DNA of 64,000 nucleotides from Telopea speciosissima (Eukaryota > Streptophyta > Magnoliopsida > Proteales > Proteaceae): assembly GCF_018873765.1 (NCBI RefSeq), contig NC_057924.1:11061001-11125000 (forward strand), read 5' to 3'. A model generated the notes under the pieces. That model saw only the letters and a program-made list of their open reading frames with translations, searched no databases and was not told the origin of the DNA. Of the stretch, positions 649 through 37,560 are shown piece by piece (the stretch's first letter is position 1; each line of letters begins with the position of its first letter). The position numbers and the translations under genes were made by a program.

Positions 649-1680
649 ACATTAAAACAGTAGAATTGATTAGTTTATTGGTCTCGTTCTGGTCCTGCCA
701 TTAAGGAACCAAACTGAGCCCAGAACCAGACCAATTTACACCCCTAAGTAGAGTACTTCATCATTGTTTCTTTAATTATTATCTATGGGCCTTGGGCTTT
801 TAATGGCTAAGGGATCCAAATTTATATGAAATATTCAAGTCTAGGCTCTGCCCTAATGTTTTCGGGCTTTCCCATGCTCTGGCTAGGCTAAAATACAAGT
901 CCAAGCCAACCCTGGATAGGATGGGTTTGCAGGGCCCACACGGAATTGGGCTAACAATTGCAACTCGGCCCACTTCTTCCAACATATCAAAAGTTCTCTG
1001 GTATGAATAAGATATGAACTAGGATAATTCGGATCTAATGCAATGAACCCGTTAATGGCATTAATCTTCCCTTACTTTGATAAGTCCCTTTAGTTCACAG
1101 TATCCCGATTGGAATCGAATCGATCACCGCCAATACTGATAACGATACTAATCCGTATCGATCCGTATCAGGCCGATACTGTATTAGAAAGTCATTTTTT
1201 TCTCAGACAAAGTCTAGGGGTCGGTTTCAATGTTCGGTTCAGTTCGGTCCTATCGGTGGCCCATTGGTTTAGCCCGAACCGAGCCAAAATCAAATGGTGT
1301 TCTAACCCGTAAAGCAAAGTCGAACCGATAAGGCATTGGTTCAGTTTGAATAGGCTCAATCGGGTCGGGCCGGGCCGGTTTGACAGATTCGATTTAGGTT
1401 TTGATATCCTTACATTAGATAGACAATAAACCCTAGGATAGGCTACAAAGTCATATTTAGTGGATCATCTTAACCATATGGTGCATCATTATGAAATTTT
1501 CTTTTTATTTTTTACAGGTGTTTGTTCTTAATTAAAACATATCCATTTTTTAAGAAATTTTGAATTTTATTTCATTATAAGAGCACATGAGAAGCGTGTA
1601 TATGCGTGTGGAATTTAATATATGACTAGATGATGATGATGACAAAATATCCATTAAATTTAAATTTAAGTACAAACCTA
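649..1680. other. Intergenic, degenerate repeats only
   Basis: No coding signal is seen. From about 1085 to 1400 there is a degenerate stretch rich in GTATCGATCC and CGGTTCGG words, which recur at 6380-7015, 29395-29640, 38215-38410 and 39015-39440. They look like old copies of a dispersed repeat whose ends I cannot define. Confidence 0.5.
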
Positions 1681-2190
1681 GCTGCCATTGTTTGTTTTAA
1701 AGTTAATTCAATCTTATCTTATTCTTCAAATCGGAAACTTGGAAGACTTTTGAGACACTCAAATCAACAAAAGAAGACTTGCACTCAGTGGGAACTTCAT
1801 TCTCGTATGTTGTGTACACCTTTATTTTTATTGGGAAAATTACAAAAAAAACCCAGTTAGTTTGAAAAAATTATACCGATCCTCTTCAAAATTACATTCA
1901 CCTCCCCTCTTATTTTTTAGATTATCCTAATCAAGGGTCTGTAGGCCAAGTACAAACTAAGGGGATCATAAACCTACAACTACCAAGGGAGAGGGGAGGG
2001 GTTGTTTTTTTGGTACAAATCTGCAATTAGGAGAGTAGATCTCTTGACTTCCTGGGGGCATACACTTCAACCGACAAACCACCACCCAACCTATCAAGCA
2101 CTCCATGATGGGTTCATTTCTCTTGTATTCATGACTCAATCAACAACAATGAGGATAGCTATCGTTGGAGAAAAATGGGGATTCACATTT
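1680..2190 (+). pseudogene. Relic 5' end of an ENDO1/BFN1-type nuclease gene (promoter and leader only)
   Basis: About 1690-1830 matches the region upstream of nuclease copy B (31185-31300): it shares TTGTTTTAAAGTT, GGAAACTTGGAAGACTTTTG, GACACTCAA, CTTGCACTCA and GGGAACTTCA in the same order. A second part, about 2105-2185, matches the copy B leader up to the start codon (TTCATTTCT, then TGTTGGAGAAAAAATGGG in B and CGTTGGAGAAAAATGGGG here). Homology stops just after the ATG, and no exon 1 signal-peptide sequence follows. The intervening 1830-2100 is an unrelated insertion. This is a truncated gene copy or a duplicated promoter, not a functional gene. Confidence 0.65.
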
Positions 2191-2472
2191 GATAGAGGTG
2201 AGAGGAGTGTATTCTTCCTCCCAAATTTTGTGAACATGTTTACCATCGAGTACTCGTAGGTAGATTTTGAGATCAATCTATCATAAATTGGGAGAATGCT
2301 TTGTAAATTGTTGGGAAGACTCTTCATTTGTTTCCTGGAAAAAAAAGGGCTCTGTTTGTTTTCATGTAAATATGCAAAACTTTCCTTTGGAAATATTACA
2401 TTAAATTTTTTCTAATGTTTGAAAGAGGTAAAATATGATGTGCAATGTTCTTGTAACATTTTTATGGGTGAA

Positions 2473-2626
2473 AGTTTTTTGTCCGGAAGTTTGGCCTATG
2501 CCAGTACTCACATGAATCTATCTCTTTTCTCACCATTTGAAAAGACACCTCTGCCCCCTTGTTTTGAGGAGGAGAGAGACAAACACATGGGAGTACTAAC
2601 GTAGGCCACACTCTTGGACTAAAAAC
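2473..2626. mobile_element. Foldback MITE, family M1, copy 1
   Basis: The element is a near-complete palindrome of about 150 bp. The left arm (GTTTTTTGTCCGGAAG, then TTGGCCTATGCCAGTACTC) is mirrored by the right arm (GAGTACTAACGTAGGCCACAC, then CTTGGACTAAAAAC). It has no coding capacity. A second copy follows after 24 bp, and a third is at 51908-52073. Confidence 0.75.
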
Positions 2627-2650
2627 TACCTCCCCATTTTTAGGGAAGTA

Positions 2651-2803
2651 GTTTTCTGTCCGGGAGTGTGGCCTACGCCAGCGCTCCCATGTGTCTATCT
2701 TTCTCCTCCTCAAAGCAAGGGGGCAGAGGTGTCTTTTCAAATGAGGAGGATAGAGATAGACTCATGGGAATGCTAACATAGGCCACACTCCCGTACAGAG
2801 AAC
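2651..2803. mobile_element. Foldback MITE, family M1, copy 2
   Basis: Same family as the neighbour at 2473-2626. The left arm reads GTTTTCTGTCCGGGAGTGTG and is mirrored at the right end by CACACTCCCGTACAGAGAAC. The internal AGGTGTCTTTTC block is shared with the other copies. The open frames read on both strands here are products of the palindrome. Confidence 0.75.
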
Positions 2804-3075
2804 TTTCTCCCCCATTTTTATTTAGCGTTTGTTTGCCATATATTATAAAGCTCTTTAAAATAGTTTCATAAAATACCATTGTGATCAAATTTGAATTATA
2901 CAACACTTAGCACATGATGGTAAAAATCATCTACAAACATGGCTGGGTGCCACAAATATAGGCCATATGTGATCCATCCAAAGCTACAAAGGATACCCTT
3001 AAGATATTGAAAATTTTATGAGATAAGATTTTACAGTTAAATTGCATATAAATTTTGTTAAGATCGACAAAATCT

Positions 3076-3115
3076 CAAATGTGTAAATTTTTTTTTTTGG
3101 TAAGCAAATGTGTAA
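3076..3115. repeat. 18-bp poly-T/GGTAAG insertion between 11-bp duplications
   Basis: CAAATGTGTAA occurs at 3076-3086 and again at 3105-3115. Between them lie 18 bp: a T-run followed by GGTAAG. The long duplication plus a homopolymer tail is the signature of target-primed retroposition truncated almost to nothing (minus-strand tail CTTACC plus A-run). Confidence 0.6.
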
Positions 3116-3287
3116 TCTATTTGTGAAAAAAGTAACGATTTTTTTTTAATGAATGAAAAATATATTAATGAAGCACAGAGAATCTTCCTCCCACCCTCCT
3201 CCAAAAAAAAAAAACAGAAGGAAAGAGCATTCCCTTTTTAAATCACGAATTTAAACATAAGTAATGAAAAGATTTTTTTACTTGTCA

Positions 3288-3440: not shown

Positions 3441-4260
3441 TAAGACGATAATGATCCGTAAAAAAAAACTGAATTTTATGATAGAATTACTAGGAATCCA
3501 TTCACTTCTTAGGTCTGCATGACAATACTTGCAATTACAAATAAGGGGAGAGAGAGGATCGGTACGACGCCAGAATGCAGTTTTCAACGAATTACGAGGT
3601 GGGTGATCATACTATAAGAGTTCAGATATGCTACCCACATGAAGGGTTCAAATCTGTCCCCACCTGTCCCATCTGTCCCCATGTGGATAGCAGATCTAAA
3701 GTCAATAAAAGACGTTTAATGAGGAGAGAGAATGAGTTCCATGGATGAGCTGTGAGTTGATCACTTGCGTACGAATATGCACATTAACATCGTGAGTTTC
3801 TTTTACTCTAAAAACTAAGAGTTTTCATAGAATAATGAAACACCTTAAATTTATTCAAACAGGAAGGAAAGGGCCAAGTGGATCTTAGTACCCACCAATT
3901 TTTTCTTCTTCTTCATCTTCATCTAATATAAAGAATCCTAACAAAACGTGTTGCATTCACGATAGAATATAGATAGGTATCGTCTTCACCCAATATAAAA
4001 AAAAAAAAACTTACAACTTTTCTATGTCTCTCTTCATGGACAAAAAATCTTCTCTGATGCTGCATCTGCCTGCTGTGTGGTGCAGTATGAACACTAAAGT
4101 TCAATACATGGAAGATGCGATATCCAATGGTGCCAAGCTCGAGAAAAATGAAAGAAAAAAAAAAACTCGAGTTATGCAACTTCGCCCAAATCGTTGGCTG
4201 CACTACCTCTCACGATGTCTGGTGCACCTTCGAGTGTTCCTATAATAGTCTATCCAATGC

Positions 4261-6212
4261 GCTTTTTTTTGCTAAAAGGTCAGTAAGTATATTGAGAAAT
4301 GATAAATATGTACAAGAGGCTATACGCCAGAAAAAGATTCAAGTCTCAACCAAAACAAGACAAATTAGCAGAAGCGGTAGTACGATCTGCCCGTGGCTTC
4401 CCTATCAATCGAGTGTGCTATGAAAGATGGGGAATCATTCCACTTCTCCGTAGCCTTAGTGTATGCTGCCCGATTAGCAAGAACATCTGCTGGGACATTC
4501 CCTTCTCTGTAACAGTGAGAGATACGCCATTGAATGGAATTAAGATAAACCTTAATAGACCACCAGCGTTGAATGAACTCCCAAGGCATATTAGAAGCTA
4601 GAATGCCATTGACTACCGTGGCTGAGTCGCATTCCACCCACACTCGTTGCATCTCTAACTCCTGTGCTTCTTTTATGCCTAAGAAGAAGGCAGCCATCTC
4701 CGCTTGATAGTTCGTTCCATTGCCTTGATGAGAGGAGAAGCATTGTCTAGTTAACCCCTAGTGGTCCCTAAAGATTCCCCCTGCACCTGCATGACAGGGT
4801 TCCCAAATGATGAGCCATCGATGTTCAGCTTCCACCACCCCATAGGCGGTGGTTTCCAACGAACCTCAATCACCCTCTTCAGTTTTGGAGTAGCCTTGGA
4901 AACCTTAAAAATCTTAGCAAGCATGAGATCATTTACTGATTTAATTGTAACCCCTTTGATGATAGAACAGCTTGAGATCTCGTTGATGCATCTTTGCACC
5001 ACTTGTCTTGGAGGGGAACGCTGGTTATCATATCTTCTTTTGTTTCTTTCAAACCAGATTTGTTGACATATAATAATAAGGAGAGCCTTCCAGATATCAG
5101 CTAACAAGACAACTTTAGCTTTCTTCCTCCACCACGAGAACAAGAGCTCCAAAGAAGGGAAGCCAATCCAAACTTCGTTGAACAGACTAAGAGCCTTGGA
5201 CCACACTTGACTCGCAAAGTTACAGCTGAGCAAGATGTGATGACTAGTTTCTTCTTCAGCCCAACATAACTCACATCTGGAAGCCATAGGAACTCCTCTT
5301 CGACAAACATTCTCATCTGTGTACGTGGGAAGAGCCTTATGGGCTAGTCTCCAGCCAAACAAAGAACTGTGGGGGTGAAGGTGTTTATCCCAAATTGCCC
5401 AAATCCAATCCGGCCTAGCTGTTTTCTTTCTTAGTTCCTCCCAAGCAAACCGCACCGAAAAGGATCCAGATTTGGTGTGAGTCCAAATCGAGCATCCTCC
5501 CTTTCTGATGGAATAATGCCCAAATTTTGAATGCTATTGAAGACGCCTTGAAGCATATGATCTTCCACTTGAGGGATCACCCAGGTACCTTCGTCAATAA
5601 AGTCCGCCACCGAGGCTGATAGGTTGCTTGGAATTTGGACTGGAAGAAGCTGATCTACGATGCTCTGGTATCCCATCCACCTATCATACCAAAAGTGAAT
5701 AGATTCACCATTCCCAACCACCTAACGTTCTTCAGTCTGTATAAAGCTGCAAACCTTCTTTAAACTTATTAGCAAAGTAGAAGTGCTCACATAGTTCTTT
5801 ATTGAACCATCCTAATTAACCAATCTTCCTAGTAGAAAGGCTGTTAAGCTTGAATTGCCACTTCTGATAGACCAGGCGAATTTGGCTAGAAGGGCCAAAT
5901 TAACTTCCTTGAGATGCCTTATACCCAACCCACCTTCTTGTTTAGGTTTACAAAGGGCGTCCCATTTCACTGTGATAGCTTTGGCTCTGTCAGCTTCCCT
6001 TGACCAAATGAAGTTACGAATCCATCTCTCCATGCTAGCAATTGCAGTCGCAGGCCAATAGTAAACAGAGAGATTATGAATAGGGATGCCTCCCATTACA
6101 GATCTTACTAGTTCAACGCGCCTTGCCAAAGAGAGAAGGCGACCCTTCCAAGAGGAGAGTCTTTTCTTGAAATGATCAAGAAGAGGTAACACATTGGCTT
6201 TGGTAACACATT
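4261..6212 (-). mobile_element. 5'-truncated L1-type LINE with 13-bp target duplication
   Basis: Read on the minus strand, the pieces run in L1 order: C-terminal part of reverse transcriptase (6222-5812, with FKKRLSSWKGRLLSLARRVE and GGLGIRH), a zinc-binding RT-associated domain (5455-4751, with FGWRLAHKALPT and CELCWAEEETSHHILLSC), then an RNase H-like domain (4697-4365, with WVECDSATVVNGIL and ADVLANRAA). The A-tail appears as the T-run at 4263-4270. GTCTATCCAATGC occurs at 4248-4260 and again at 6213-6225, a clean target-site duplication. The 5' half of the element, including the endonuclease, is missing, and the reading frame is interrupted, so the copy is dead. Confidence 0.9.
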
Positions 6213-6225
6213 GTCTATCCAATGC

Positions 6226-7160
6226 ACTAGTTATGCAACTTCGCCTGTTTCTTCAAACCACTAAGCGTGGCTCCTCCACAGTTCAAGAGTAAGTACCTTC
6301 TAAAGCTCAAGAATATCACAGATCTCCTTGCAGCCGCGGGTAAACCTATAAGTGATGAGGACATGGTTTAAAGTATCACTGTCTCATCTCATCTCCGCAG
6401 ATATGTATCGGTATCATAGGGTATCGATATGACACAATGGAATACTATTCTTTTTTTATTTTTGTTGCAAAAAATGGTATCAATCAGTGTCGCATTGTAT
6501 CGGCTGATACAGTGCAATACGATACGTACCCATACTCTCTATATGATTGATTTAGGAGTTGAAAAAAACATTAAAGTATCGGTGCATATCACATTTTATT
6601 GGCCGATACAGTGTGATACAATGTGATACGTACATTAAAAGGCACATGTGACTTCAAAATCGTGATATCAAAAACTAAAAAACATCAACAACACCTGAAC
6701 TGACAAGCTTTCACCCAAAACTTCAATTTTGTGACATCTTCTTTCAAATTTCATGCTTGGGGTTTTGATTCCTTGTTGAAAAACAAATTGAATCAAGAAA
6801 ACTAACTGCACTTTGGTTGGATCAAGGAAACAAACTGTAATATTACTTATTTATATTGTTTTTTTTGCTAAAAAAAATGTATTTCTATGTATATCTTGAT
6901 CATTTCTATGTGTATCTATGCAATATGTATCTCTAATATAATATGATACAATACGATACATCTCTTAAAAATCACCCCACCAATACGATACGTAGTATCG
7001 ATATTTTAAACCTTGGATGAGGTTGCATTCTTTGTCGTTTAAACAATATTACAATCGATCTTGACAATATTCATCTCTCCCAAGACTACTTAATTTGGTA
7101 CTGATCAGATTCGAGTAGGAAATGGTTCAGGTTTGATTCCCAACACGCCAGCTTCATGGA
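6226..7160. other. Intergenic with a GATACG/GTATCG-rich dispersed repeat
   Basis: About 6380-7015 is rich in GTATCG and GATACG words and ends in TTTTAAACCTTGG, similar to repeats at 29395-29640 and 38215-38410. No gene seen. From about 7075 the sequence starts to resemble the region upstream of copy B (CCCAACACGCCAG at 7138-7153, compare 30979-30991). Confidence 0.5.
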
Positions 7161-7282
7161 CATATATAATTACCTCTCATGCTGCTTAGTTTATGCTTAA
7201 TTAATTGGTATAATATGCCCACGTTCCTTTCATTTTTCTTTTATTATTGTTTTGTTTTCAAGTTGAAGCCCATGTTTGTGTG

Positions 7283-7293
7283 TATATATATAT
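7283..7293 (+). promoter_or_regulatory. TATA box of nuclease copy A
   Basis: TATATATATAT lies 58-68 bp upstream of the ATG of copy A. Copy B has GTATATAT at 31299-31306, and the relic at 13990-14410 has GTATATATAT at 14381-14390, each following the same flanking words, so the position is conserved across the duplicates. Confidence 0.6.
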
Positions 7294-7350
7294 GGGTTTA
7301 TATTTACATTTTGGATGAGTTCATTTCTCTTCTGCTTACACTTCTAAAGT

Positions 7351-8393
7351 ATGAAGGTGTTAGGGTTGTCTCCTCTCTTTCTTGTTTTGACTGTTGGTTT
7401 TCTTTTCTTCTGGGCGCCCGGAGCTCAGGCCTGGAGCAAAGAAGGTCACATCATGACTTGCCGCATCGCACAGGTAGGCTTCTCCACTATAACATGCCAC
7501 TTGTTGTATTTTGATAAGAATTGTGAGTTCAGAGCTACTTTTGATTGAGTCCCAGTTACGAGATTAGTAGAAATCTGTTGTCTACCTTTCTTGTGGCGAA
7601 CTTTAGCCCGATGTTTAAGTTGTGCTATTGCAACCTGTTGGTTGTTAAAATACTTTTTCTGAGGTGGTCGGAAGACAAGATTTTAACATAGTGCATGGGC
7701 ACCACTGCTTTGAATAGTTGACTAGTTCGTACTTGGGGACCAGCTGAATGGGTGAACAAGTTAGATCAGGGTTTAAAAACTCTCTGGTTCGATAGTGGAA
7801 TTGGTCTGTAGATCCATTAATTGGGATCGACCGAATTAGCGAGTTTACCAACAAATCCAAATTTCTGTTGCTTGTTTTAGAATTTTCATGAAAAAAATGT
7901 TACAAATAAACCACATATTTTCATTGCACACCAAAAAAAATAGAGAAAAAAAAAAATCATATTTTTATTTTTTGGATTTTATGCGACCGTAAAATCTTCC
8001 TTCATGAATTTTCAATATCTTAATGACAACTTTAGTTGCCTAGGATGGATTACATATGACTTTATGTATAAGTGGGATCCATGGTCATAAATTATTTTCA
8101 GAACCAAATAATATATAAATGTTTTATTATTCAAATTTGATCACTATAGAATCTTATGTAATTTTTTAAAATAATTGTATCACGTAAAATAAATGACAAA
8201 CAAAACATTAAAAAATTTACAATGATATTTTACATCATATTTTATCTCTTACAAATAACTAATGGAAAAATTTTAACTATATTTTATATGGAAACAAACA
8301 AAACCTTTCCTCTTATGCTAATGTAGGGAAGAATATGCACACCACACCATTTGTTGGATAATAAGAATCATCCACATGGGGTCACATGGCATG

Positions 8394-8439
<46 letters not shown>

Positions 8440-11400
8440 AAGAACCCCTTGAGAAAGGAGTCTGAATCTGGTCCCCACGTGGAGACAGGTAGGGACAGAC
8501 CTCACCCCTCTATATGGTGTGGGTCCTATGTGTTAGAGGTGAGTCACACACCCCATGGAGAGTGTGAGACCTGTCCCGCTCCCAAACTTGAAAGGAAATT
8601 CTTTTTATTTTTTTATTTTTTAGACAAAGCGGGAAATGTTCTCTGCCTGGAAGTGCACGGGGGCATATACAGGCTGTGCCGAAACGCATGGTGCCAGATG
8701 GGATGGTTATTTAGGGGGCGGGGCAATCATTTCGCCCACCCCCATGTGTCTGGGTGCATCTTGCATCTCCAGGGTAGAGAACATTTTCCCTTATGAAGTT
8801 GCTTCTAACACATTCGTTGTTACTCCCCCCCCCCCTCATTTCCCAGAATTGGGATCAACTACCCACATGGATCTCACCATTCATGGGTGTGGGTCCCGTG
8901 CATCAGAAGTAGGATCACATCGTCCATGAACGATGAGATCCATATAGGATGGCACCCCATATGGGTAGAGAATCCGGATTCCTTCCCCACCCATTTTTTT
9001 TTCTTCCTCCTCTTCTGTTTGAGATAAATTATCTGATTATGCTTTCTCCTTCATGTTAACGATTGACTAATGACTCTTAAAATGCATTTAGTCTCTTCTA
9101 GATCCCGCAGCATCAGAGGTTATTAGTAATTTACTACCTGATTATGTTAATGGAGACTTGTCATCCTTATGTACATGGGCGGACCAAATTCGTATCTTGT
9201 ACAAATACCGGTGGACTAGCCCTCTTCACTACATTAACACTCCTGATGAAGCTTGCTCCTTTGATTATTCCAGTGAGCTCTCATAAATTAATTTCTTAAG
9301 TTCTTCTAAAATGTTCTATCTAAATCATTCTTGTTATTAATGTTATAATAATTACCTTCTTGCAAATGTTAATTAATTATATAGGGGATTGTCACAACCC
9401 AAAAGGAGTGAAGGACATGTGTGTGGCTGGTGCTGTTCAGAATTTCACAACTCAGCTGGCGAACTACAAAAAAGGATCATCTGACAGTCGTTGTAAGGGA
9501 GCTGTTCCTTGTAAAGCTTTAACTTCTCATGCATGATAGCAGAGAGCCCTGCATCTGATTTTGCTTTAAAATCTTGACTTTTAATTACTATTCTTATATT
9601 TCTTATCCAGATAATATGACTGAAGCCTTACTATTCTTGTCACATTTCGTGGGGGATATCCATCAGGTATGTATGAACTATATATGGTAGTTAGGCATCT
9701 TTAGTGTTCCTCTCTCTGGGTAATGGCGTTCAACCCAATAGCCCGAGCTTCAGGTTGGAGAGGCCCTTTCAAAATCATAAGTCAAATTGCTGCAAATTAC
9801 TTGACTGATCCCCCTTTCCATTCTTGGCCATGGAACGCATTCACTGTATCAACTCCCACCAGCTTTGGGCCATGGGCCCCCACATGACCGGTGCCCGGAC
9901 AATCCACTCTGATACCACCATTTAATGGTGTCCAACCCAAAAGACTGAGCTTCAGGGTGGAGTGGCCCTTCCAAGATCATAAGCCAAACTGCCACATACT
10001 ACCTGACCAATCCTCTCCCCTTCCATTCTTGGTCATGGAGCACATTCACTGCACCATTGGGTATTGAGGGAATGTTTTGTATTCCATCGCTTGCATAAGT
10101 GAGCTGATTCTAAAAGGCCTCTAAGAGGACATTAAGGCTTTATGTGGTTTGGCAAGATTGCCTATGTCCACCGTGAAATGAGATCTCCTTTACTATCAAT
10201 GGAAAATAGGTTCTTACAACATCTCGTCCTCACACCTATTAGATTGATTATAGAGAAAGGACTCTCCATCTAGCTAATAGAGTTTATAGTAAAATTCATG
10301 TTTAGGGTTTCGCTATAAATTTGTAGCGATGGTTCTTTCTCTGTAAGTAATCTGAAAGAGGTATGAGGACGAGTACTGACTGTAACCTTATTCTCCATTG
10401 ATAACGATCCTTGAGTGCACTATGTGATTATTTGTTTGCGATTTCTATTCTTTTCTGCATCGTTATAGGTTTCGGTTCCTACACCTCTTTGTGGGTTATT
10501 CTAAAATTTGTTTCTTTTGTCTGTGCTTGTCCTTTCAGCCAATGCATGTTGGATTTTCAAGTGATGAAGGTGGGAACACAATTGAATTGCGTTGGTACAG
10601 GCACAAGTCTAACCTTCACCATGTGAGTGGTACCAAATTAATAAGAACTATCTGTTCTTTTATTTGCGTAGTAGTTTTAATTTAATGTTTACAGTATAGT
10701 TGTTTCTATATATTGTAGGTCTGGGATAGAGAGATCATTCTTACTGCCGAAAAGTTATTATATAACAATGATATGGATCTCTTCCAAGAAGACATACAGA
10801 AGAACTTCACCAATGTAAAAACCCTAAGCAGTTGTGTTTTCATATAAGAAGAAGAAGAAGAAGGCCGGTTCTATTTTAATATCAGATAGGCTTACTTAAC
10901 TTTGAATGTGGTGTGTTACAGGGAATCTGGTCAGATGACCTTTCATCTTGGAAAAACTGTAGTAGTGATGATCTCTCCACTTGTCCAACCAAGTAGCTAC
11001 AACTCTCTCTCTCTCTCTCTCTTTCTTCTTCTTCTTCTCTGTGAAGATCTACAAGTTCTCATTTTTACCATGTATTACAGGTGGGCTGAAGAGAGTATAG
11101 ACTTGGCATGCAAATGGGGTTACAAAGGTGTTACGCCCGGTCAAACTTTATCTGGTAAGATGATAACCTCACCCTACGATATTACTCAAAAATACCTTTG
11201 GATATTAATTACTAGTCTTTAGGGGAATAATTGAAGATCCTCCCAAGTATAATGGGAAAAGGATTCTCTCCAGCCGTGCGTTCAGCCCCACTAAACGACA
11301 GCTAAATCATGGTGGGGTAGTCATTTCACAAGTGGGTCCCACCTGGGCCCCACATGTGAAATGATTACCCCTGTTTTGAGGTTGGTTTCCAAGCGTTGGA

Positions 11401-12152
11401 CCGTCCAACTCCCGCCACGGCTGGACAGGAACCAGGTCTAGTACAATCTTTAACTTCTTAATTCTTAATCTTCATGAGACTAGATGTTTCATTGTGAAGA
11501 AGTTGTCATAATTGTTAAATAATGGGCATCGGTTCATGCACAGCCCAAAAAATGAAAGGGCCACGGGCTCCCTATTCGGCCCTAGTATATGCCCAACTGG
11601 TAGGTTGGATGGGATTGGAATTTTGTAGACCATTATATTTCTATAGAAATTAAAAAATCCCACTCCCTATTATGAAAAACATAACCAAGCGAGTAATAGC
11701 CCAATAACAAGCCATTAAGCCAATCTTATAAACTGCCAAATCAAACCGGATTGGAACGAAACTTTTGCTTGATGGTTTGGTTTCAGTTTGGCCAATTACG
11801 ATCAAAATCAAATTAAATCGACCAATTGACACCCTAATTAGGGCCTATGATCTCCTACTCACCTGTCAAGTTTCGATTCAATAAAAAAAGATAAAATTTC
11901 AAAAATTTATATACAAAATTAAACTTTTCCTTAAAAATTGTTGGAAAAAATATGGGTCAACTCAGACGATTAGTGATACTAAGATGTTATATATTTTGTG
12001 TATTTGCAGATGAGTATTTCAATTCAAGATTTCCGATTGTTGCGAAACGAATAGCACAGGGTGGAGTGAGGTTATCCTTGATTTTGAACCGGTTATTTGG
12101 GCACCAGCCAACCCTCCACCACCACAGTCAAGAAATGTTGGCAACAACTTGA
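7351..12152 (+). CDS. ENDO1: S1/P1-type nuclease, ENDO1/BFN1-like, tandem copy A
   Basis: Secreted zinc-dependent endonuclease that cuts single-stranded nucleic acids; the plant BFN1 group acts in senescence and cell death (family knowledge). I read nine exons: 7351-7473, 9092-9272, 9385-9492, 9611-9666, 10539-10622, 10719-10814, 10922-10992, 11081-11154, 12010-12152. All junctions are GT-AG and the total is 936 nt, 311 aa. Residues 1-27 form a signal peptide, so mature Trp28 is the N-terminus. The nine zinc ligands of the P1 family are present: W28, H33, D72, H87, H149, D153, H159, H183, D187. N-glycosylation sequons are at N121, N139 and N213. Residues 70-81 (WADQIRILYKYR) differ from the family-typical WPDQIRHWYKYR kept in copy B. 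The tail has HHH near the C-terminus. Its 5' and 3' neighbours are repeats. Frame, splice sites and ligands indicate an intact gene. Confidence 0.93.
8397..8437. repeat. GA microsatellite in intron 1 of copy A
   Basis: About 20 uninterrupted GA units. A shorter GA run is found at 34043-34066 in intron 3 of copy B, not at the same position. Confidence 0.9.
8631..8790. mobile_element. MITE, family M2, in intron 1 of copy A
   Basis: The ends are the inverted repeats GGGAAATGTTCTCT and AGAGAACATTTTCCC. The core contains CCACCCCCATGTGTCTGGG, shared with copies at 33685-33808, 35682-35817 and more weakly 41163-41313 and 42399-42564. Non-coding. Confidence 0.75.
9717..10055 (-). mobile_element. TRIM-like LTR element remnant in intron 4 of copy A
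   Basis: Two direct repeats of about 130 bp (about 9717-9848 and 9918-10055), sharing CCATTCTTGG and CATTCACTG words, flank about 70 bp. Next to the right repeat, 9904-9917 is the complement of TGGTATCAGAGTGG, a tRNA-Met-type primer-binding site, so the element lies on the minus strand. There is no coding sequence, as expected for a TRIM. The repeats are clearly diverged, so it is old, and it is a fossil. It is absent from intron 4 of copy B. Confidence 0.6.
11261..11433. mobile_element. Foldback MITE-like element in intron 8 of copy A
   Basis: The left end GGATTCTCTCCAGCCGTGCG is mirrored by the right end GCCACGGCTGGACAGGAACC. An inner palindrome around GGGTCCCACCTGGGCCC lies at its centre. 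The matching part of intron 8 in copy B lacks it. Confidence 0.6.
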
Positions 12153-12639: not shown

Positions 12640-13990
12640 AAGGCATATTGGAAAAAGAGAGGAAGGATCCAAAAAGCATGATAGAAGATGCTAGGACCGA
12701 GTTCCCATCTTTGGTTCAGGTAGAAGTCTTGTCAAATCTATCTGATGAGTCCAAACTTCCTTAATTCGCCATCCCATTTTGGTGGCTTTTTGTTCATCCC
12801 GTGAAGCATGCTTTGCACTTTTGCGGCATAAATTTGACCTGTCGTTATGCAATCCAAACCTGTCAAAACAAAGTGGCCTTGGAGCAAAGTGCCATAGGCC
12901 CTGCCTGAAGCGTTCAAGAGACATAAGACCCACATTTCATTGTTTGGAAATAATAAAATCACTCACCCAAAAGAGGGACACATGACAAGAAACAGAAACT
13001 TGATCATGAAGATTACGAGAGGAAGGGATCCATGGGTCAAACCAGAAGGATGTTGACCTACCATTATCAATCTAACGGATCACAATAGATTTCAAGAGGT
13101 AAAATACCAGCAATGCTATTTCAGGTCCAAGAGCCCTTTTGGCTAAGACTTTAGGGTCAAATATGGATTTCCTTTCAAAATAACTGACTTTAATAATCTG
13201 AGTCCAAATGGTAGAATCCTCATTAATAAGCCGCCATCTCAGCTTCAGGAGAAAAGATTTGTTTTGAGTACCAGCATCCTGAAAACCTACACCTCCATTA
13301 CATCTTAAGGGTACATAACTTAGACTAAGAAACTAGGTGGAGAGATCTGGAATTCTGCTTAACGCCAATCCAAAAGTTAGAACATATGGAATCCTAACTA
13401 CGACAGATTTTATTTGGAAAGGCAAAACAAGACATAAGATATGCCAGAAAAGAAGAAAGAAAAGATTGGATCAATACCTGACGGCCCGTGTAGGATAGTA
13501 ATTTGGCTTTCCAAATCGATAACCTGGATTCCACTCTTTTGACAATATGCTAAAGACTAGCAATACGAGATCGGGGAGGGAGAAACTACGTGCCTAAGTA
13601 GGAAGCATCACTAGACATTTCATTAATACCAAGAAGAGAACATAAATGGTATTTCTCAAAAGTTGGGACATTTTTGCTAAAAAATAAACCAGTTTTTCCG
13701 AAATTGATAGATTGGCTTGAAAGATCGGAAAAAGGCTCCAATACTGATTTAATGGTGAGTAAGTCCTTAGTAGTGATCGTGCAAAAGCTAAATGTGTCAT
13801 CTGCAAATAAAATATAAGAAATTTCAAGGGTACAACGAGCCACCTTCATATCTCGAAAGAGTCCTAGTTCCATGGAGGTAAGTAAGAAACAAGAAAGAAA
13901 TTCCATAGCAGTAATAAAAATGTATGAACTAAGCGGACAACCCTGTCAAATTCCTTTCGAGGGACATATATGTTCATCGAGGCTGGTTAG
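12640..13990 (-). mobile_element. Decayed L1-type LINE fragment
   Basis: On the minus strand the piece at 13906-13586 carries the reverse transcriptase core YILFADDT, preceded at about 13950 by a region reading QGCPLSSYIF. Further toward 13200 comes GGVGFQDAGTQNKSFLLKLR, typical of the L1 RT C-terminal part. The frame is broken by stops and shifts and both ends are truncated. I see no target duplication. It lies between the 3' end of copy A and a relic promoter. Confidence 0.75.
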
Positions 13991-14410
13991 ATCACCGAAG
14001 ACTTCCCAACATGCTAATTAACCTCTCATGCATAAAAAAAAAAAAAAATAACTACTCTTTTTCATTTGGTTTTTTTTTGGGTAGAAATAACTACTCTTGT
14101 TATATTCTTCCAAGACGAGACAAATGAATAATAGATATATGGAGTAACATTGGTTCTCTCTTTTATTCCGTTTTGAGCTGCCGTTTTCAAGCTGTTTAGT
14201 CTGTTTATGTGGGTATATAATATGCCCATATATGTTCCTTTGCCGTTTTCTTATTGTTTGTTTTAAAGTTGAAGCCAATCTTATTCTCTAAATCGGAAGC
14301 TTGGATGACTTTTGGGGCACTCAAAACAATAAGAAAACTTGCACTCAATTGGAACTTCATTAATCTCGTATGTTGTGTGTGTATATATATGTCTTTGTGA
14401 TGCTAGTATG
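13990..14410 (+). pseudogene. Relic promoter/leader of a nuclease gene copy, without exons
   Basis: GAAGACTTCCCAACATGC (about 13997) matches GAAGACTTCCCAACACGCC upstream of copy B (30973). The words TTCTTCCAA, GGTATATAA, GTTGAAGCCAA, GGAAGCTTGG, GACTTTTGGG, AAAACTTGCACTCAA and GGAACTTCA then follow in the same order as at 31025-31285, ending in a TATA-like GTATATATAT (14381-14390). No exon 1 follows; sequence after 14410 is unrelated. A short T-run insertion at 14060-14084 lies inside it. Confidence 0.7.
14046..14098. repeat. 25-bp T-rich insertion between 14-bp duplications
   Basis: AAATAACTACTCTT occurs at 14046-14059 and 14085-14098. The 25 bp between are T-rich and end TTGGGTAG. The left copy follows an A-run, so the true duplication may be a few bases shorter. 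Same pattern as 3076-3115 and 45738-45789. Confidence 0.6.
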
Positions 14411-18224: not shown

Positions 18225-18227
18225 GCG

Positions 18228-18239
18228 TGGTATCGGAGC
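18228..18239 (+). other. Primer-binding site of the Gypsy fossil
   Basis: TGGTATCGGAGC lies three bases after the 5' LTR end and matches the initiator tRNA-Met primer site (TGGTATCAGAGC) at 11 of 12 positions. Confidence 0.8.
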
Positions 18240-19744: not shown

Positions 19745-21122
19745 TTAGATTCCCTAACCTGCAACCAAAGAAGGCCAAGAATACAGAAACACATTAAGTC
19801 CATGCTTGGATATTAAGGTCTAAGTAGGTATACAATGAAAGGAGACAAGGAATTAGAACCTAGAACTTGATTCCTACAATGATTAACCACATTACGTAGG
19901 AATGTACTAGGACAATTTTGTTGTGAATGGTCTAAGGAGTTAGGGAAAAGGGGAAAGCATGGCCAACATGTAGATGCAATCATAGAGGATAAACGTACAT
20001 GGCCACATTATGCTTGGAGAAGCATTATATCATACAAGCATTTAGTTCAAACAAAATTGGACTGAATTGATAAAAATTATACTATGAAACCCAAAGAGGA
20101 AATTTTCAGAATTTGGTTGGAAGTTGAATGATATAGTACACAATATACATACATGGCCATAGTATACCTAGAACATGAAGTTTATACTAAATACCTAGTT
20201 CAAGCAATATATGGAGCTAAATTGTAGTAAATAATGCTTGAATCTCTAAAAGAAAATTCAGATGTGATTCTTGAAGTTCCAATTTGCAAGAAATAAATAA
20301 GTAATGGCTTGAGACAACCCCAAATTATATACACCAAGCCTACCTAGCAAAACCGAACTTGAATTGGGCAAAAGACATAGAATTTCGGTTAGGGTTTTGG
20401 GATTTCACCAAAATCCAACCCAAACCCATGGTGAAGGTGCAAAATTGGGGGAAATACCTCAACTAGGTTGCATATGATGGGAAACGAATGGAGAATGGAC
20501 AATAATCCATCTATTTAGCTAGGAGAAAACAAAAACCCAAATCTTGTAAACCCGAAATGGATTTTGGGGTTTCTCCATAATAGAAGTCGAAAGGAGAAAG
20601 AGATAGATCGATAGAGAGGGAAGAGGGCATACTGAACTCGATCGGATCTGTTGTGCGTGGATTGAGTGCCAAAAATCCACCTTGAAGGGAGAGGGAGCAA
20701 GGGACGAGTGCGGTTTTGGGTTCTCCGGAGCGTAGGGTGTGTTTAGAAAAAGGGTTTTGGGTTTTGAAGAGGAGTTTCGAGTGAGAAATTCTGCTTTTGG
20801 ACCATGCGGTTTTACACTCGGATGCAAGATTTTGAATCCGATCGTGAATCCGCGGATTCCCGAGACCAGCCTTTGGTCTGTGAAGGTCGGATTTACACTC
20901 GGATGCAGCCTAGTGAAACCGCATGTAAATCCGACCGCCGTAAAGGGTTTTTTGACCTGTTTTGCTTAACCAACTTGTTTCTAATGTTTATTACCCTCAT
21001 TATTGCTTCCCTTACCCCTCGTGTAACCTATGTTTACCTTTGCAAATCGATTTTTTTGATTGGTTTGCTTAATATTGCAATTGTGCCTATAACTGTGGGT
21101 GTTGATCGTAACCGTGTGAACC
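19745..21122 (+). other. Leader of the Gypsy fossil
   Basis: Non-coding spacer between the antisense stretch and gag. At about 20800-20940 it repeats the LTR words GGTCGGATTTACACTCGGAT. Nothing else recognised. Confidence 0.6.
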
Positions 21123-24100: not shown

Positions 24101-25892
24101 GCCGCTGTGGTTTTCGCTCTGAAGATCCGGAGACATTATTTATATGGTGAGAAGAGCGAAATACAAGTGATCACAAGAGCCTCAAATACTTCTTTACACA
24201 AAAGGAGCTCAATATGAGGCAGCGCGGTGGTTGGAGTTGTTGAAAGATTATGATTGTACTATCCATTACCACCAGGCAAGGCAAATGTAGTAGCGGATGC
24301 GCTGAGGCGAAAAATCTCGATCCTTGTCACCTGGCATCACTAGCAACAAGGAGAAACTCATCGAGGAAGCTAGAAGGATGGACACGGAATTCTTGGTTGA
24401 TGGTGTTACCTTATCTCTATCGACTTTATCAATACAATCCACACTTGGTAGGGCGAATTCAATCAGCCCAGGCTTCGATGAGGAGATTCAAAAGGTTATT
24501 GAGGCTATCAAGGGGACACGCATGGGGCTGGATTTTACTTTAGCAGAGTGGTGTTCTCATGTTCGACAACGGCTATGTGTTCCTAGTAACCCTCGGTTGA
24601 GGAAGGAAGTGTTAGCCGAGGCCCATGACTCTCCTATTCTATTCATCCAGGTAGTACGAAGATGTATAGAGATCGAAGGAATATTCTGGTGGAGTGGAAT
24701 GAAGAGGGATGTGGCTGAGTATGTGGCAAAATGTCTTACTTGTGTCACGGTGAAGGCGGACGACAGCGACCTCATGGCCTCTTACATCATTACTGTTCCC
24801 AGTGGAAGTGGGAGCATGTAACCATGGATTTTGTCACGGGTTGCCCCGCACGCCTAGAGGTGTCGATACCATATGGGTTGTCGTTGTGATTGACAAAGAC
24901 GGCTCACTTCATCCCCATGAAGATTACCTATTCGATGGACAAGTGGCTCGCTTGTACATTGATAATGTAGTTCGTCTACACGGAGTTCTGTCAGCATCAT
25001 CTCCGATCGGGATCCCATTTACATCTAAGTTGGGGAGGTTTTCGAAGGCAATGGGTACCTTTGTTGAGTTTTAGTACAGCCTTCCACCCTCAAACCGACG
25101 GACGATCGGAGAGGACTATTCGGACATTAGAAGATATGCTCCGAGCTGTGCCATTGATATGCAAGGGTGGGATGAGCATCTCTCACTTATTGAGTTTGCT
25201 TACAATAACGAGTTACCAGGCTACTATAGGCATGGCACCGTTTGAGGCTCGAGATGGGAAGAAGTGTCGGACACCGTTATATTGGGACGAAGTAGGTGAA
25301 CGGCGTATTCTTGGACCCGAGTTGATTCGAGGCAACATGCGAGAAGGTGGACTTGATTCGTGAGCGGATCAAGGCGGCTCGACCCAGGCGAAGGGTTATG
25401 CGGACTTGAGACGGAAGGACCTTGAGTTCACTGTTGGCGATAAAGTGTTCCTTAAGGTATCACCCTCTAAAGGGGTGATGCGTTTCACAAGAAGGGCAAG
25501 CCGAGTCCGAGATTTATAGGACCTTTTGAGATCCTTGCGGATTGGACCGGTGGCATATCGGTTAGCACTCCCTCCATCTTTAGAAGGTGTGCATGACGTC
25601 TTCCACGTATCCATGTTGAGGAAGTATGTCCATGATTCAAGCCATGTATTGACGCATGAACCACTGAACTTGCGGCCGACATGTCCTATAAAAGAGCTCT
25701 GAAAGATTTTGGACAGCAAGGTTGTTCATCTTCGCAACCGCCCATTCATTATGTGAAGATAAAATGGTGCAACCATCCGGAAGAGGAAGCTTCTTGGGAG
25801 GCAGAGGTAGAAATGCGGGCGAAATACCCTTTTCTTGCCTATCTACAAGTACGTCAAATTTCGAGGACGAAATTTCTTATAAGGTGGGGGGA
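21123..25892 (+). other. gag-pol region of the Gypsy fossil, broken
   Basis: Parts in order: gag N-terminus from 21123 (MVNTRPNANRSP), a CCHC zinc-knuckle-like stretch near 22235-22275, the protease/RT junction near 22735-22790 (DVILGMDWLSTH), reverse transcriptase near 23200-23800 ([28 protein letters not shown]), RNase H near 23930-24280 ([20 protein letters not shown]), integrase about 24560-25500, and a chromodomain-like tail near 25700-25880. The region is interrupted many times and is inactive. A purine-rich tract (about 25881-25891) precedes the 3' LTR. Confidence 0.88.
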
Positions 25893-28700
25893 TGTTATAC
25901 CTGCATTCCCGGATATAATTAAATATCATTTCTTCTCGTGACGTGTAGATACCGCCATGTATCTTTGGTGACTGTTCTCCATGATGGTCAAACCTAGCTA
26001 CAAAATCGTTGACCACAAGACGGGTTTGCCGTGGAGGAAAGATTTCTCAACCGCCAAAGGGGGAAAGTTCGTGGACGGCGACTTCGTCGACTACCCTCCA
26101 AGTACCAGCCCGGAAGCGAGGAGTTCAGGAGAGAGCATCCTGGACCGTCACCTCACCTGGATATTTCGTTCGGTGATGAGCTTAGCGTTGCCGTGGCGAA
26201 GTGCATTCGGGGTCATGGGTAATAAACCATGACAGGGGAAAAGTAAGTTCTAGCCTCAAGTCTTATTAATTATTCTTCCCTTGGTAACCTCGAGTGCGGG
26301 TCCGGGCTTGAACCGCTCGAGCTATTTCATGAGAGAAGGGAATAATTTAAGTTCGGGTCCCGCGTGCCTTTAGGAAGTACATTGGGGACTTAAACCCATC
26401 TCATATGAACCCATCTAAGAATGGGCTTTTCCCTAATTGAGGTTGTGGGCAGGCCCATATAACCTATTGACCCAATGATGGGTTATTCCATCCACTTACC
26501 CACATAGGACTAATGGGTTGACCCATTAGGCCTCATGACCCATTTGACTAAGGGTACCCATAGACCCATTTGTTATAAATGAGTCCATGAGGGAGAGAGA
26601 GAACATCACTTCTTCTTCAACATCCTCTTCTACCCTAAATCGTGGAGGAGAGAAAGAGGAGAGAAAGAGGAGAGGAAGAGAAAGAGGAAGGAGAGAGAGG
26701 CTTGGAGGAAGGTGGAGACCCCATCTCTTGGGCCGTAAATCGTGGAGCTCTCATCTTGGGGGTAGGTAAGCTTCTTCCTTCTTCTATTTTGGATTTCAAA
26801 AAGGGGTTGGGTAATGGGAGAGATTGACCTAGATCTCTTGGAACCTAGGGAGTAGATGGAGCTTTAAAGCCAAGCTATGGTGGAGTTAGTTCACTCCATT
26901 ATGAGCTCTAATGTGAGGGTTCTCATTGCCTTTTGAGAGATTTAAGGTTGGACCCTAATGAGCTTAGGATGGAGTTTTCTAGAAGTCCTTGTGCTTAAAA
27001 CCACTTGAAATGGGGTCCTTGGAGGGGAATCCTTTGGATTTTTGGACCGAAGGTGTGAGGGTTACATGTGGGTTCGGACCTGCAAGAAACCACCCGAAAC
27101 TACCTTCCCGAGAAGGATTCTGTGAAGGTCGGATTTACACTCGGATTCGATTTTCAAACCACATCCGCATCCGACCTTGACAAAAATTGTCCCGAGCCCC
27201 GTGAAGCTCGGATTTACACTTGGATTCGTTTTTGAAACCACATCCGCATCCGACCTTGACTAAAAGCGTCCCGGTTTCCTAGGATTTACATGTGGTTGCG
27301 GAATTTGGGCATGAAACCACTCCTGCAACCACTTCGTCTCGAAACCTTATACTTAAGTGTTTATGGGAGACCTTTGGGGATCCGTTCCTTCGCTCGTTTA
27401 ACCTTATTCCACTCCTTGTATAGGTTAAAATATTCACTTTTGTGGCTTATTGCTTGATCGAGGCGACAACCGATAATTGTGGTGCTTGGCGTATACGAGT
27501 GAGTGGGTTTGGTTGTTTGGGTTTGTTATTATTATTGCACTATATATTATGTACTCATTATAATTAATAAGCATGTTTGCGCATATTGCATAATTTTATA
27601 TCTATTTGTTATAATGTTGATTGGTAATGTTGTATCTTGATGCGTCTCGGTGCGGTGGTACGTGCGAACCCGAACTCTATAAACATTTATGAAGAAATTA
27701 TGTTGAATGTCATGTTGAATCAGTATGCGCGTGCCGTCCGTAACCGGGCACTAAACCGGATGAAAAGTTGATGCGCCGGATTACCTCTCGGGACGATAGG
27801 ACTTGCATGTAGTATATTTGTGGCTAGGATTTCACACCCTTATGCTACGACCCTTACCAACAGGGGTTTAGGTGTTGGGTAATCGTACCGGATTTCGTGG
27901 AGGTGGGAGAGGCCGATCATGGTAGTATTGGTTATCGGGTCCGCCACCGAGTGGTCTTGGAGGCTTCGATCGGCGTAGGTCCCACGTGACAATTGAGGTT
28001 TCATTGTGGCGATAAGTTAAGTGACCCACAGTGTCTCCCGAGTTGTCACATAGCATATGCCATTGACTTAGTTGTTTGTTAGGTGGAAAATGGACTTAAC
28101 ATGTGCATGCATCATTGGACTATGTGAATTGCGTGTTGTGCATTCCCATCCCCTCAGCTGCTCGGTGGAGCTAACCCCTCGTGCGCACATTTTTTAGATT
28201 ATGGTGCGGTGACGGATATCTCGCGGGACTTGGAGTTCAGCCCTCGGGATACGATGAGATCGGTGAGGAGGAACCGAGGCCGTGTTTGAGGAACATGGCG
28301 ACGGGTGTCCTTGCGATGATTGTGCCTACGGCCGTGAGGATATTCGGGACTCGATCCCCTTTTGATTACTTTTGAGGCTAAGGCCTATGGTGAAATACTT
28401 ACCGTAATACCATTTTTGATAGTTATTAGATGATCATTGGAAATGTAACTAATTACTGTATTTATCATCTAGCTTTGAACATCTTGTAACTATTCGATTT
28501 ATACGCTTCCGCAATACTACTGATCATTGGAATGTAATATTCCTCTTTTCTGCATTCTAATATTATATTGTGTTAATATTGGATATGACTGTGCGTTGGG
28601 ACACTGTGTCAGTGATCCGGGCGGTTTAGTAGGATGACACGCGTCGTCCTAGTCACCCTTTATATGATATTATATCCCTTGTCGGGATGGGGGCGTGACA
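25893..28700 (+). repeat. 3' LTR of the Gypsy fossil
   Basis: Starts TGTTATACC and ends GTGACA, about 2808 bp, followed directly by the CCCCT duplication. Near-identical to the 5' LTR. Confidence 0.93.
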
Positions 28701-28705
28701 CCCCT

Positions 28706-30490
28706 CCCCTGGGCGATCCTCTCTCTAAGGTGTGGTGTATGATAGTGATTAGGGTTTTGGAAACCCTAGTTCGTTGGTGATAATTTTGTTGATCGCTTGC
28801 ATTGAATTGAAGAATTAAGAGTTGATCGTCGTCAATTCTCATCATTGCTCAAGTGAGGAAGAACTATTATTTGGAAGAAGAACTACATTTACGGTTCTAA
28901 GGGGACCTATTGCTCCCTTTTCGTTTATTTTGTTATGAGATGTTGATCTCAAACTTGAATGCAAAGTTTTTGCACCTGATCTGGTTCTACTTACGCATTC
29001 GGGTAAACCATTGTTTCTCAACACATAAGGCACAAATGTTTGTTGGTGATGGTTGTATTTTTGCCATTATATTTTGGAGAAGAAAATGCACACCGCCCAT
29101 GTAAGCTAAACTAGGAAGTGACACTACTGGGGGCACAAAATGGGGTATCATACAAGAGAAGCAGGGTCATTTCAAAAAAGTGAAAAGAGAGAGATAGACA
29201 TAGTGGAAGTAACCTTAGGATACACCAACGATGTGCCCAACCTTTTCCCATCACGGAATTTAATTTGTTCGGGGATTGGACTAATGGACGTCAGGCTCGC
29301 TCACTTGCTACTTACTTGGGTCACCGGCTCACATGTCGTCTCTTGCTGGTGTTGAGACTTGAGAGCCCTTGATAGCTCAACACTTACGTAGTGAAAAGAG
29401 CATGGTTTTAGTGCACAGTATTGGAACGAGTATCGGCAACACGCAAAATTGATATAGTATCGGCTTAGATTGGTTGTATCAGATAAAATTATCCCTGAAA
29501 TTTCTTTAAAAAATAAATTTTCTGACCATTTTACCCCTTGTTCATACCATGTTATTGATACGATATTAGCATGGTATCGATATCGATGATTAATAAAACC
29601 GATAGAGACGATACGATACGATACGAATACTTGGAAACATGGAAAAGAGAAATAGAAAGACTGTAAGAGTTTTTTATGTTGGGTGAAGATGAAACCTATC
29701 AATATTCTATACGATGAATGCAACACGTTAAGTTAGGTTTCTAAATTAAGTTGCCATAATCCCATTTGCAGAGTCAACCCTCCTAGAATCCCAGTTCACA
29801 CCTGCTTCTTTCGTTTTATTTAATTTGATTATAATATATATAGACCCTCCATTATTTGTTGGGGGAGCTAAGTCACCCAACACAGTCATCATTCCATCAT
29901 AAAAAAAAATAAAAAAAAAAAAAAAGAAAACCCAAAGCCCTCATGTGCCATTTTATTATTCTATGGAAACTCATTATTTATTTTTAGAAGAAAAGAAGCC
30001 CACAATGTAGTTTGTATATTCCTTAACGATTCTTACTTTGGCGGTAACCTATGAGACATACAATCAGGGTCCCTCACATAATTTGTGAGATATCATTAGT
30101 TTTTTAGGTTCCATTTGCTTAGAAATGAATTGTGGTGAAAGTTTTACCAAAATATAAAAATTGAGGTGACAGCAGTATGACTCTTTGATTTTTATTATAC
30201 CTTCTTTATCCAAAAAAGGAAAAAAAAATATATTAGAATAACGTAAAATAAAATTTTTCATGAAAAAGATGGCAGCGCAACAGCTATTATTGTGCTAGGG
30301 CTGGCGTATTGATCCAGTTTGAGAAGTTGTTGATCTTAGTTTCTAACCTCTGACCTTACTGAAATTTTGAAATATACCATTTTCAAATAATTACACCTAG
30401 CACTCTCTCATTGGTTGTGGGAATCTATCCATGGTGGGAGTTCCTCAAATTTCCCTTCCCAACCAACCCTCTTAGAAGCCAGACCCACAG
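28706..30490. other. Intergenic, no gene recognised
   Basis: This is the continuation of the target sequence interrupted by the Gypsy insertion. About 29395-29640 is another GATACG-rich dispersed repeat with end words CATGGTTTTAG and CCAAGTATTCG. No coding signal on either strand. Confidence 0.5.
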
Positions 30491-30491
30491 T

Positions 30492-30895
30492 TAGGGATAT
30501 GTAAATGGATAATCAAAATTTTGAATTCGATTCGTATTCGTATCCGTTTAGGGATATTTATATTCATTTAGAGATATCAAGAAAAAAAATCCCAATACTT
30601 AATAATAAAAAATTAAATAAATAATGATCTTGAGGGTTTTTGAAAATTCAACGGATTCTAGAACATGAGGAAAAGAGAATCATGATCTAAGAGATATGGA
30701 TTGAGAGTGAATTGTATCCGATAAGAGGAGGAAGGTCCGGGTTATACATGACAGAGATATAAACGGATGATCGAAAATCCGAATAAGATCTGCATTCGAA
30801 TTCGCTTAGAGGTATCTATATTCAGCTAGAGAATATCCGAATCCGATCCGTATCTGAGCCGAATCCCATCCATTTACAAGTCTACTTACAAGGTA
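30492..30895. mobile_element. hAT-like non-autonomous element, GGGATRTAAA family
   Basis: The left end TTAGGGATATGTAAATGGAT and right end ATCCATTTACAAGTCTA are imperfect inverted repeats around an AT-rich body with GAATTCG and TATCCG words. A second copy with the same end words is at 41695-42106. I could not define a target duplication. Confidence 0.5.
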
Positions 30896-30908
30896 GGTAG
30901 ATAGATAG

Positions 30909-30910
<2 letters not shown>

Positions 30911-30943
<33 letters not shown>
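30911..30943. repeat. AG microsatellite upstream of copy B
   Basis: About 16 AG units directly before the first block conserved among the nuclease promoters. Confidence 0.9.
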
Positions 30944-30945
<2 letters not shown>

Positions 30946-30960
30946 TTCCGTGGCCGGCCA

Positions 30961-31409
30961 GATCATCAGTGAAGACTTCCCAACACGCCAGGTTCAAGGG
31001 ACATAAATAATTACTGTATAGATTCTTCCAACACAAGACGAAAGGCACTTATATTGGTTACCTCTTTTATTTAATTCAGTTTTTGGTATATATTAACGTT
31101 CTAAAGGCTAAAGCTGCTTAATTAGTTTATGCTGGGGTATATGCCCTTTTTTCTTCTAATTGGGAAATCTTTTATTGTTTTGTTTTCAAGTTGAAGCCAA
31201 TTAATCTTCTCCACCGGAAACTTCGAAGACTTTTGGGACACTCAACAACATAAGAGAAAACTTGCACTCAATGGGAACTTCACCCATGTTTTGTGTGAGT
31301 ATATATCACACACATATTGGATGACTTCATTTCTTCCCTTCTGTTCCTTATAAAGTCAACAGCAGCAGCAGCAGCAGCAGCGAAGTTAATAAGAATTGTT
31401 GGAGAAAAA
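30961..31409 (+). promoter_or_regulatory. Promoter and leader of nuclease copy B
   Basis: Contains all blocks shared with the two relics: CTTCCCAACACGCC, the GTTGAAGCC region, and the block 31199-31284 (GGAAACTTCGAAGACTTTTG, AAAACTTGCACTCAATGGG) that copy A lacks. The TATA-like GTATATAT is at 31299-31306. A (CAG)7 run at 31360-31380 lies in the leader. An in-frame upstream ATG at 31317 would add 31 residues including an alanine run; copy A has a stop codon in the equivalent stretch, so I place the start at 31410. Confidence 0.65.
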
Positions 31410-37397: not shown

Positions 37398-37560
37398 GCT
37401 TCGCCAATCTCATCAGATTTCCTTCTGCAATCTATTCTTCTAATTATCTTAGTGTGCCATGTGGCAAATGTTATAGGGCTGACCTGTATTAATCCATTCA
37501 CTTAGTAGGACTGCAGGATAATTTTTCTTGTTAGATAATAAATAATGATTTTAATTTTTT
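37398..37560 (+). other. 3' untranslated region of copy B
   Basis: Shares TGTGCCATGTGGCA and GGACTGCAGGATAAT with the copy A 3' region. AATAAA within GATAATAAATAATG at about 37531-37545 is a likely polyadenylation signal. Confidence 0.55.

Follow-up and report, generated by a model that had tools for sequence, protein, structure and literature searches.

Promoter-only copies beside two intact S1/P1 nuclease genes of Telopea speciosissima

How can a promoter come to stand without its gene, twice, next to two intact genes of the same kind? This question is raised by a nuclease locus of Telopea speciosissima. The window, which is the whole stretch of DNA analysed, is C9:11061001-11125000 (64 kb), and the genome searched consists of 822.9 Mb in 1287 contigs. 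The two intact genes are located as follows.

7351-12152, plus strand: G1, nine-exon S1/P1 nuclease gene, intact, 311 aa; PF02265 295.2 bits
31410-37397, plus strand: G2, nine-exon S1/P1 nuclease gene, intact, 312 aa; PF02265 302.6 bits

According to splicing by the GT-AG borders, G1 and G2, which lie in the same orientation, have open frames and the same intron phases (0,1,1,0,0,0,2,1). The two nine-exon genes with identical phases that a preliminary description of this DNA had proposed are borne out by this splicing. The proteins of 311 and 312 aa are 84% identical (263/312), and the values of Ks and Ka are 0.21 and 0.072, respectively. Both proteins match positions 1-257 of the 258 positions of the PF02265 profile, far above the cut-off of 29.5. 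A hydrophobic N terminus precedes W1, the putative first residue of the mature protein. Judged by position, motif and spacing, all nine of the residues that we take to be the zinc ligands (W1, H6, D45, H60, H122, D126, H132, H156 and D160 of the mature protein) are present in G1 and in G2, in agreement with the preliminary description. Ligands are found in the motifs SHF, GDIHQP and NLHHVWD, and further ones are residues 1, 6, 45 and 60. The P1 numbering of these zinc sites is likewise our assumption, and the P1 numbers that we presume (116-153) have no literal fit in G1, G2 or the 3sng chain.

The nearest solved structures are 3sng and 4dj4, which are presumably tomato TBN1, a nuclease of the BFN1 type. 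The 3sng nuclease is 70% identical to G1 over 268 aa and 76% (75.6%) identical to G2 over 266 aa, whereas Endonuclease 2 (3w52, 4cxo; ENDO2 subgroup), which is of the same family and is aligned end to end, is 56% identical to G1 and G2. The bit scores of G2 are 504.5 against the 3sng nuclease and 358.6 against Endonuclease 2. Being nearer to the 3sng nuclease than to ENDO2, G1 and G2 would belong to the BFN1/ENDO1 subgroup. They resemble the nucleases of this type (3sng, 4dj4) in the full-length PF02265 domain, the nine ligand residues and the hydrophobic N terminus, and they differ in that two tandem copies and a histidine-rich C-terminal tail are present here, and in that G1 lacks a part of its proximal promoter. 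The PF02265 search of the genome gave eight exon matches, four on C9, two on C6 and two on C1. The exons of the S1/P1 paralogues on C6 and C1 are much more diverged from G1 and G2, and the paralogue on C6 tends towards ENDO2 (69-76% in three exon matches vs 50-61% to the 3sng chain). Judged by sequence, the products of G1 and G2 are most likely secreted zinc nucleases of senescence and cell death. A passage of PMC13300488 names BFN1 as the plant nuclease whose role in programmed cell death is supported by the most compelling evidence. The count of four additional S1/P1 genes in Arabidopsis given in that passage fits the single BFN1 that the preliminary description had assumed there (PMC13300488).

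Two repeat copies, 81% alike, are located in intron 4 of G1 (9721-10051), and the repeat also matches a locus on C1 (L013). An open frame of 854 aa on the minus strand (L033:6763-9324), approximately 11-13 kb from the left end of the window and outside it, corresponds to a receptor kinase with malectin-like and kinase domains.

The promoters of the two genes and the two relics, A and B, are located as follows.

1687-1815, plus strand: relic A, proximal promoter block; 82% to 14253-14378 and 80% to 31174-31282
~1820-2100, plus strand: dispersed repeat DNA (one or two repeats) within relic A, not derived from the nuclease; at least 43 other genome matches
2092-2182, plus strand: relic A, leader piece; homology ends just past the start codon (ATGGG)
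7128-7350, plus strand: promoter and leader of G1; ~80 bp of the proximal block absent
13959-14391, plus strand: relic B, promoter sequence only; extends to the TATA region; collinear with 30932-31306 upstream of G2
30407-31409, plus strand: upstream region, promoter and leader of G2, the fullest copy; 30407-31234 collinear in four pieces with C7:1747046-1746345

When the window was compared with itself, 1687-1815 was aligned with 14253-14378 (E 5.9e-29), 14251-14388 with 31172-31306 (E 1.1e-25), and 1687-1799 with 31174-31282 (E 1.5e-17). The preliminary description had named the alignment of the upstream blocks of the relics with 31100-31300 as a check, and the alignment is significant (E 1.5e-17 for A and 1.1e-25 for B). 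The leader piece of relic A is aligned with the G2 leader, up to ATGGG, with a score that none of 500 shuffles and none of 828 other windows of 111 bases reached. The match of the same piece to the G1 leader is weak, and 2/500 shuffles and 12/828 windows score as high. The repeat DNA at ~1820-2100 has at least 44 matches including itself, distributed over 11 contigs; the others cover 5-101 or 95-285 of the query. The region 1680-2190 had been described as one stretch of promoter and leader. The match holds, but the continuity does not: relic A consists of two pieces split by a dispersed repeat. Upstream of relic A, and between its right flank and exon 1 or the start of intron 1, homology stayed within that of shuffles. 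The region 13990-14410 had also been assigned to promoter and leader; the promoter part stands as relic B (13959-14391), but no leader was found after it, and homology downstream of B is within that of shuffles.

In G1, both ends of the proximal block are present and the middle is missing. The gap is located at 7274-7275, and the counterpart of the missing part (31202-31282) is kept by G2, A and B. The relics match G2 better than G1 because the G1 promoter lacks ~80 bp of the block. Relic A as the displaced promoter of G1 is ruled out, since G1 has its own copy with the ~80-bp gap. NAC, W-box and EIN3 motifs show no consistent pattern as a signature common to the five promoters, and a sigma-70 scan is without bearing on plant promoters.

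The rarity of the promoter sequence was examined genome-wide. In the 823-Mb genome, a distal 27-mer with up to 3 mismatches was found at three places only (C7, B and G2), and a proximal 28-mer with up to 3 mismatches was also found at three places only (A, B and G2); each reversed control gave 0. Among longer DNA queries, the A query found A and B, the B query found B, A and G2, and the G2 query found G2, B and C7. These genome searches score the best candidates only, and G2, at 80% identity, escaped the A query; thus, the absence of further copies holds only for comparably alike ones or for those within 3 probe mismatches. In 264 kb (the window and 20 loci), a profile of the proximal block matched its five source copies (G2, B, A, C7 and G1), the next match having an E value of 0.33, and a profile of the distal block matched its four source copies (G2, C7, G1 and B) and none further up to E 5. 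At the sensitivity used, the three places per probe and the 2, 3 and 3 query matches rule out that the block is a common dispersed repeat, the possibility against which the preliminary description had asked its reading to be checked. Nor is the block a feature of every nuclease gene: in the sequence read at the paralogues on C6 and C1, the best match has an E value of 0.005 and is not convincing.

One further copy is located outside the window.

C7:1747046-1746345 (L023:5046-4345), minus strand: fifth promoter copy, promoter only; four pieces collinear with 30407-31234 of G2

Further short pieces of the C7 copy match G1 and relic B. The copy lies in an intron of ~12 kb of a methionine S-methyltransferase gene, on the same strand as that gene, and the flanking exons are 1747886-1747704 and 1735764-1734790. 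It is broken by a 288-bp insert flanked by ATATG, which in our reading resembles a small terminal-repeat element. No significant nuclease match was found in 80 kb around the C7 copy. C7 was rejected as a whole-genome-duplication partner of the C9 locus because the copy sits inside the methionine S-methyltransferase intron; in addition, a search of 144 kb of C9 found no methionine S-methyltransferase gene, and the surroundings have only short or transposon-like matches in common among the best 60 tblastx rows. Tandem duplication alone cannot account for the C7 copy. The preliminary description, with four units only, had missed both this copy and the repeat inside relic A.

The sequences between relics and genes contain the following features.

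2401-2464 and 2828-3037, minus strand: pieces like intron 1 of G1, matching 8276-8209 (76%) and 8204-7986 (70%), inverted
3773-4035, plus strand: segment of the A-G1 spacer; pieces 3773-3840 and 3932-4035 have inverted counterparts in the B-G2 spacer
4368-5533 and 13589-13945, minus strand: two fragments of LINEs, with zf-RVT and RVT_3 and with RVT_1 slightly under the cut-off
15412-28700, plus strand: Ty3-type LTR retrotransposon, 13.3 kb, between relic B and G2
29642-30021, minus strand: segment of the B-G2 spacer, inverted counterpart of 3773-4035

The two spacers share a longer pair of pieces (3932-4035 / 29742-29642) and a second one (3773-3840 / 30021-29951), both inverted. The genome query 3770-4040 found itself and C9:11090642-11090742(-) only, the latter between B and G2. 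A repeat at 2465-2827 interrupts the stretch 2401-3037, which lies immediately to the right of relic A. In the stretches of DNA compared, the intron-1-like sequence occurs at these two places only. Since it has no clear counterpart in G2, the first intron of G1 is longer at that point, and its divergence is above that of the promoters, the sequence suggests an inserted repeat. A true intron remnant at this position could favour exon loss. The second LINE fragment ends (13945) shortly before the start of relic B.

The LTRs of the large element are located at 15412-18224 and 25893-28700, and the 5-bp direct repeat CCCCT is present at both ends. The domains RVP_2, RT_RNaseH and Integrase_H2C2 appear in separate pieces, in the order protease-RNase H-integrase. 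According to the paired LTRs, the target-site duplication and the domain order, 15412-28700 can be classed as a Ty3 LTR retrotransposon. No Pfam match was obtained for 24971-25360 of the element. An antisense frame near the 5' LTR (18929-19744) has a weak likeness to Transposase_32, below the cut-off. The LTRs differ at 34 of 2773 aligned sites, indicating that the element is much younger than the duplications. It was rejected as the cause of the truncation of relic B, being much younger and beginning 1 kb past the end of B.

The promoter copies differ at 11/121 sites between A and B, 15/130 between B and G2, and 14/119 between A and G2; for C7 and G2, 22/125 and 7/51 mismatches were counted from the alignments. 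In the aligned introns and UTR of G1 and G2, 220 of 1739 sites differ (12.7%). Thus, the divergence of the relics is like that of neutral DNA of comparable age. In a comparison of 65 columns, six informative ones separate A and B from C7 and G2, and one gives another grouping; the bootstrap value for A and B apart from the rest is 90% (200 replicates). With G1 included, the informative columns of 52 are divided 2:2:1 across the grouping (A,B)/(G1,G2) and its alternatives. The divergences suggest the order C7, then G1/G2, then A/B and, much later, the Ty3 element. The promoter copies (~120 sites each) differ from one another in divergence by no more than sampling error, and the last step alone clearly exceeds it.

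The order relic-gene-relic-gene is found in one orientation, and the neighbours have the gene and locus-specific non-coding sequence in common. Same-orientation neighbours with common genes, common promoters and a spacer piece confined to the locus point to tandem or block duplication. For the origin of the relics, the best explanation, which we adopt tentatively, would be a truncated tandem duplication followed by one duplication of a relic-spacer-gene block. The locus would go back to a single gene of the BFN1/ENDO1 type. Tandem duplication, with the breakpoint on the right close to the start codon, would have placed a promoter-leader copy, born without exons, upstream of the intact gene. 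A breakpoint at this position gives exactly such a copy in the same orientation. A single later duplication of the block would then have produced A-G1 and B-G2, which explains the shared spacer with few steps. Because the spacer piece is shared and confined to the locus, stray exons were not found in 224 kb of C9 and C7, and A is closer to B than to G2 or C7, four independent units are unnecessary. Subsequently, dispersed repeats may have entered the leader of A, and the spacers may have received a LINE fragment as well as other repeats; a segment of the spacer would have been inverted, ~80 bp lost from the proximal promoter of G1, and the Ty3 element inserted between B and G2. The link of the same promoter with the methionine S-methyltransferase intron on C7 would go back to a different copying event, perhaps an older one. 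Two features do not fall out of this account. The shared spacer pieces are mutually inverted, so that a further rearrangement is needed, and A ends past the start codon whereas B ends at the TATA, with no sequence in common after both ends.

Alternatively, full-length tandem duplicates may have lost their exons by later deletion, leaving promoter stumps, which was the first mechanism offered in the preliminary description. The same orientation, a divergence similar to that of the intact genes and the plentiful repeat insertions at the locus are consistent with such losses, as is the resemblance of 2401-2464 and 2828-3037 to intron 1 of G1, although in inverted order. However, when G1 and G2 were used as DNA queries on the remainder of the window, a further 80 kb of C9, 80 kb of C7 and the stretches at C6 and C1, 23 matches were obtained at E <=1e-4. 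Fifteen of these lie outside exons, the two intron-1 pieces beside relic A among them, and the eight that overlap exons are all in the C6 and C1 paralogues (8/8; 70-81%). No exon of G1 or G2 was found outside the two genes in 224 kb (144 kb of C9 and 80 kb of C7). Since the relics are 9-12% diverged and the search detects exons at 70-81%, any remnant of an exon next to A or B should have been detected. Moreover, all of the relics (3/3) keep the 5' part, and none found keeps the 3' part. We therefore regard exon loss as possible but rather doubtful. Thus, the earlier inference of a duplicated locus with two genes and two relics is retained, whereas repeated duplication with loss of exons is disfavoured, and we lean to 5'-end copying with block duplication.

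A third possibility, which we consider unlikely, is that A, B and C7 arose independently of each other, as promoter fragments used as filler DNA in the repair of breaks or carried by a mobile element. The C7 copy inside the intron of an unrelated gene would be explained in this way, and filler-DNA copying of gene fragments at breaks is proposed for dispersed plant pseudogenes in a passage of PMC7935947. On the other hand, A and B adjoin genes in the same orientation and the spacers have a locus-only piece in common; the copies have no common ends, and by probes and queries the blocks occur nowhere else.

Do the relics have a function? Most likely, A and B do nothing; they are taken as dead because they have diverged like introns, repeat DNA interrupts A, and the search for a leader of B found none. 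It is highly improbable, in our estimate, that they are regulatory DNA (an enhancer, a decoy or a promoter of non-coding RNA) kept by selection. Such a role would be in line with the three promoter-only copies, no exon-only copy having been found, and with the many plant non-coding RNAs that, according to a passage of PMC7935947, arise from regions upstream of pseudogenes. However, the divergence of the relics (9-12%) is not clearly lower than the 12.7% of introns and UTR, and neither the split of A by repeat DNA nor the leader not found for B agrees with selection.

The fragmented tandem, proximal or dispersed pseudogenes of plants described in a passage of PMC7935947 are likewise truncated duplicates near or far from the parent, some of them intronic, whereas the fragments here consist of promoter and leader with no coding exon. 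As fragmented, partly intronic copies and filler-DNA copying are described in that passage, the kind is already known; the locus is ordinary in kind and an unusually clear example. Among the matches listed for the literature on promoter or partial duplication, none treats promoter-only relics, and the search for Telopea speciosissima with nuclease found nothing on the subject. Having no coding exon, relics of this type would, we infer, not be listed by searches that start from proteins.

A broader reading, to which we give only a slim chance, is that the 5' regulatory region of the nuclease multiplies or survives geneless (3 promoter-only and 0 exon-only copies found), with possible effects through the C7 and locus copies. 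If so, the copy in the C7 intron, which is on the strand of the host gene, could place an unrelated enzyme under the control of senescence, and those at the locus could serve as promoters of non-coding RNA or as competitors for regulators of senescence. The absence of the proximal stretch in G1, compared with G2, offers a clean natural test of its importance for the expression of a cell-death nuclease. Searches for dead genes are usually protein-based, and promoter-only copies escape them. The present locus shows that such copies are recognisable, can be compared with introns as a clock, and can be found both beside the parent gene and far from it.
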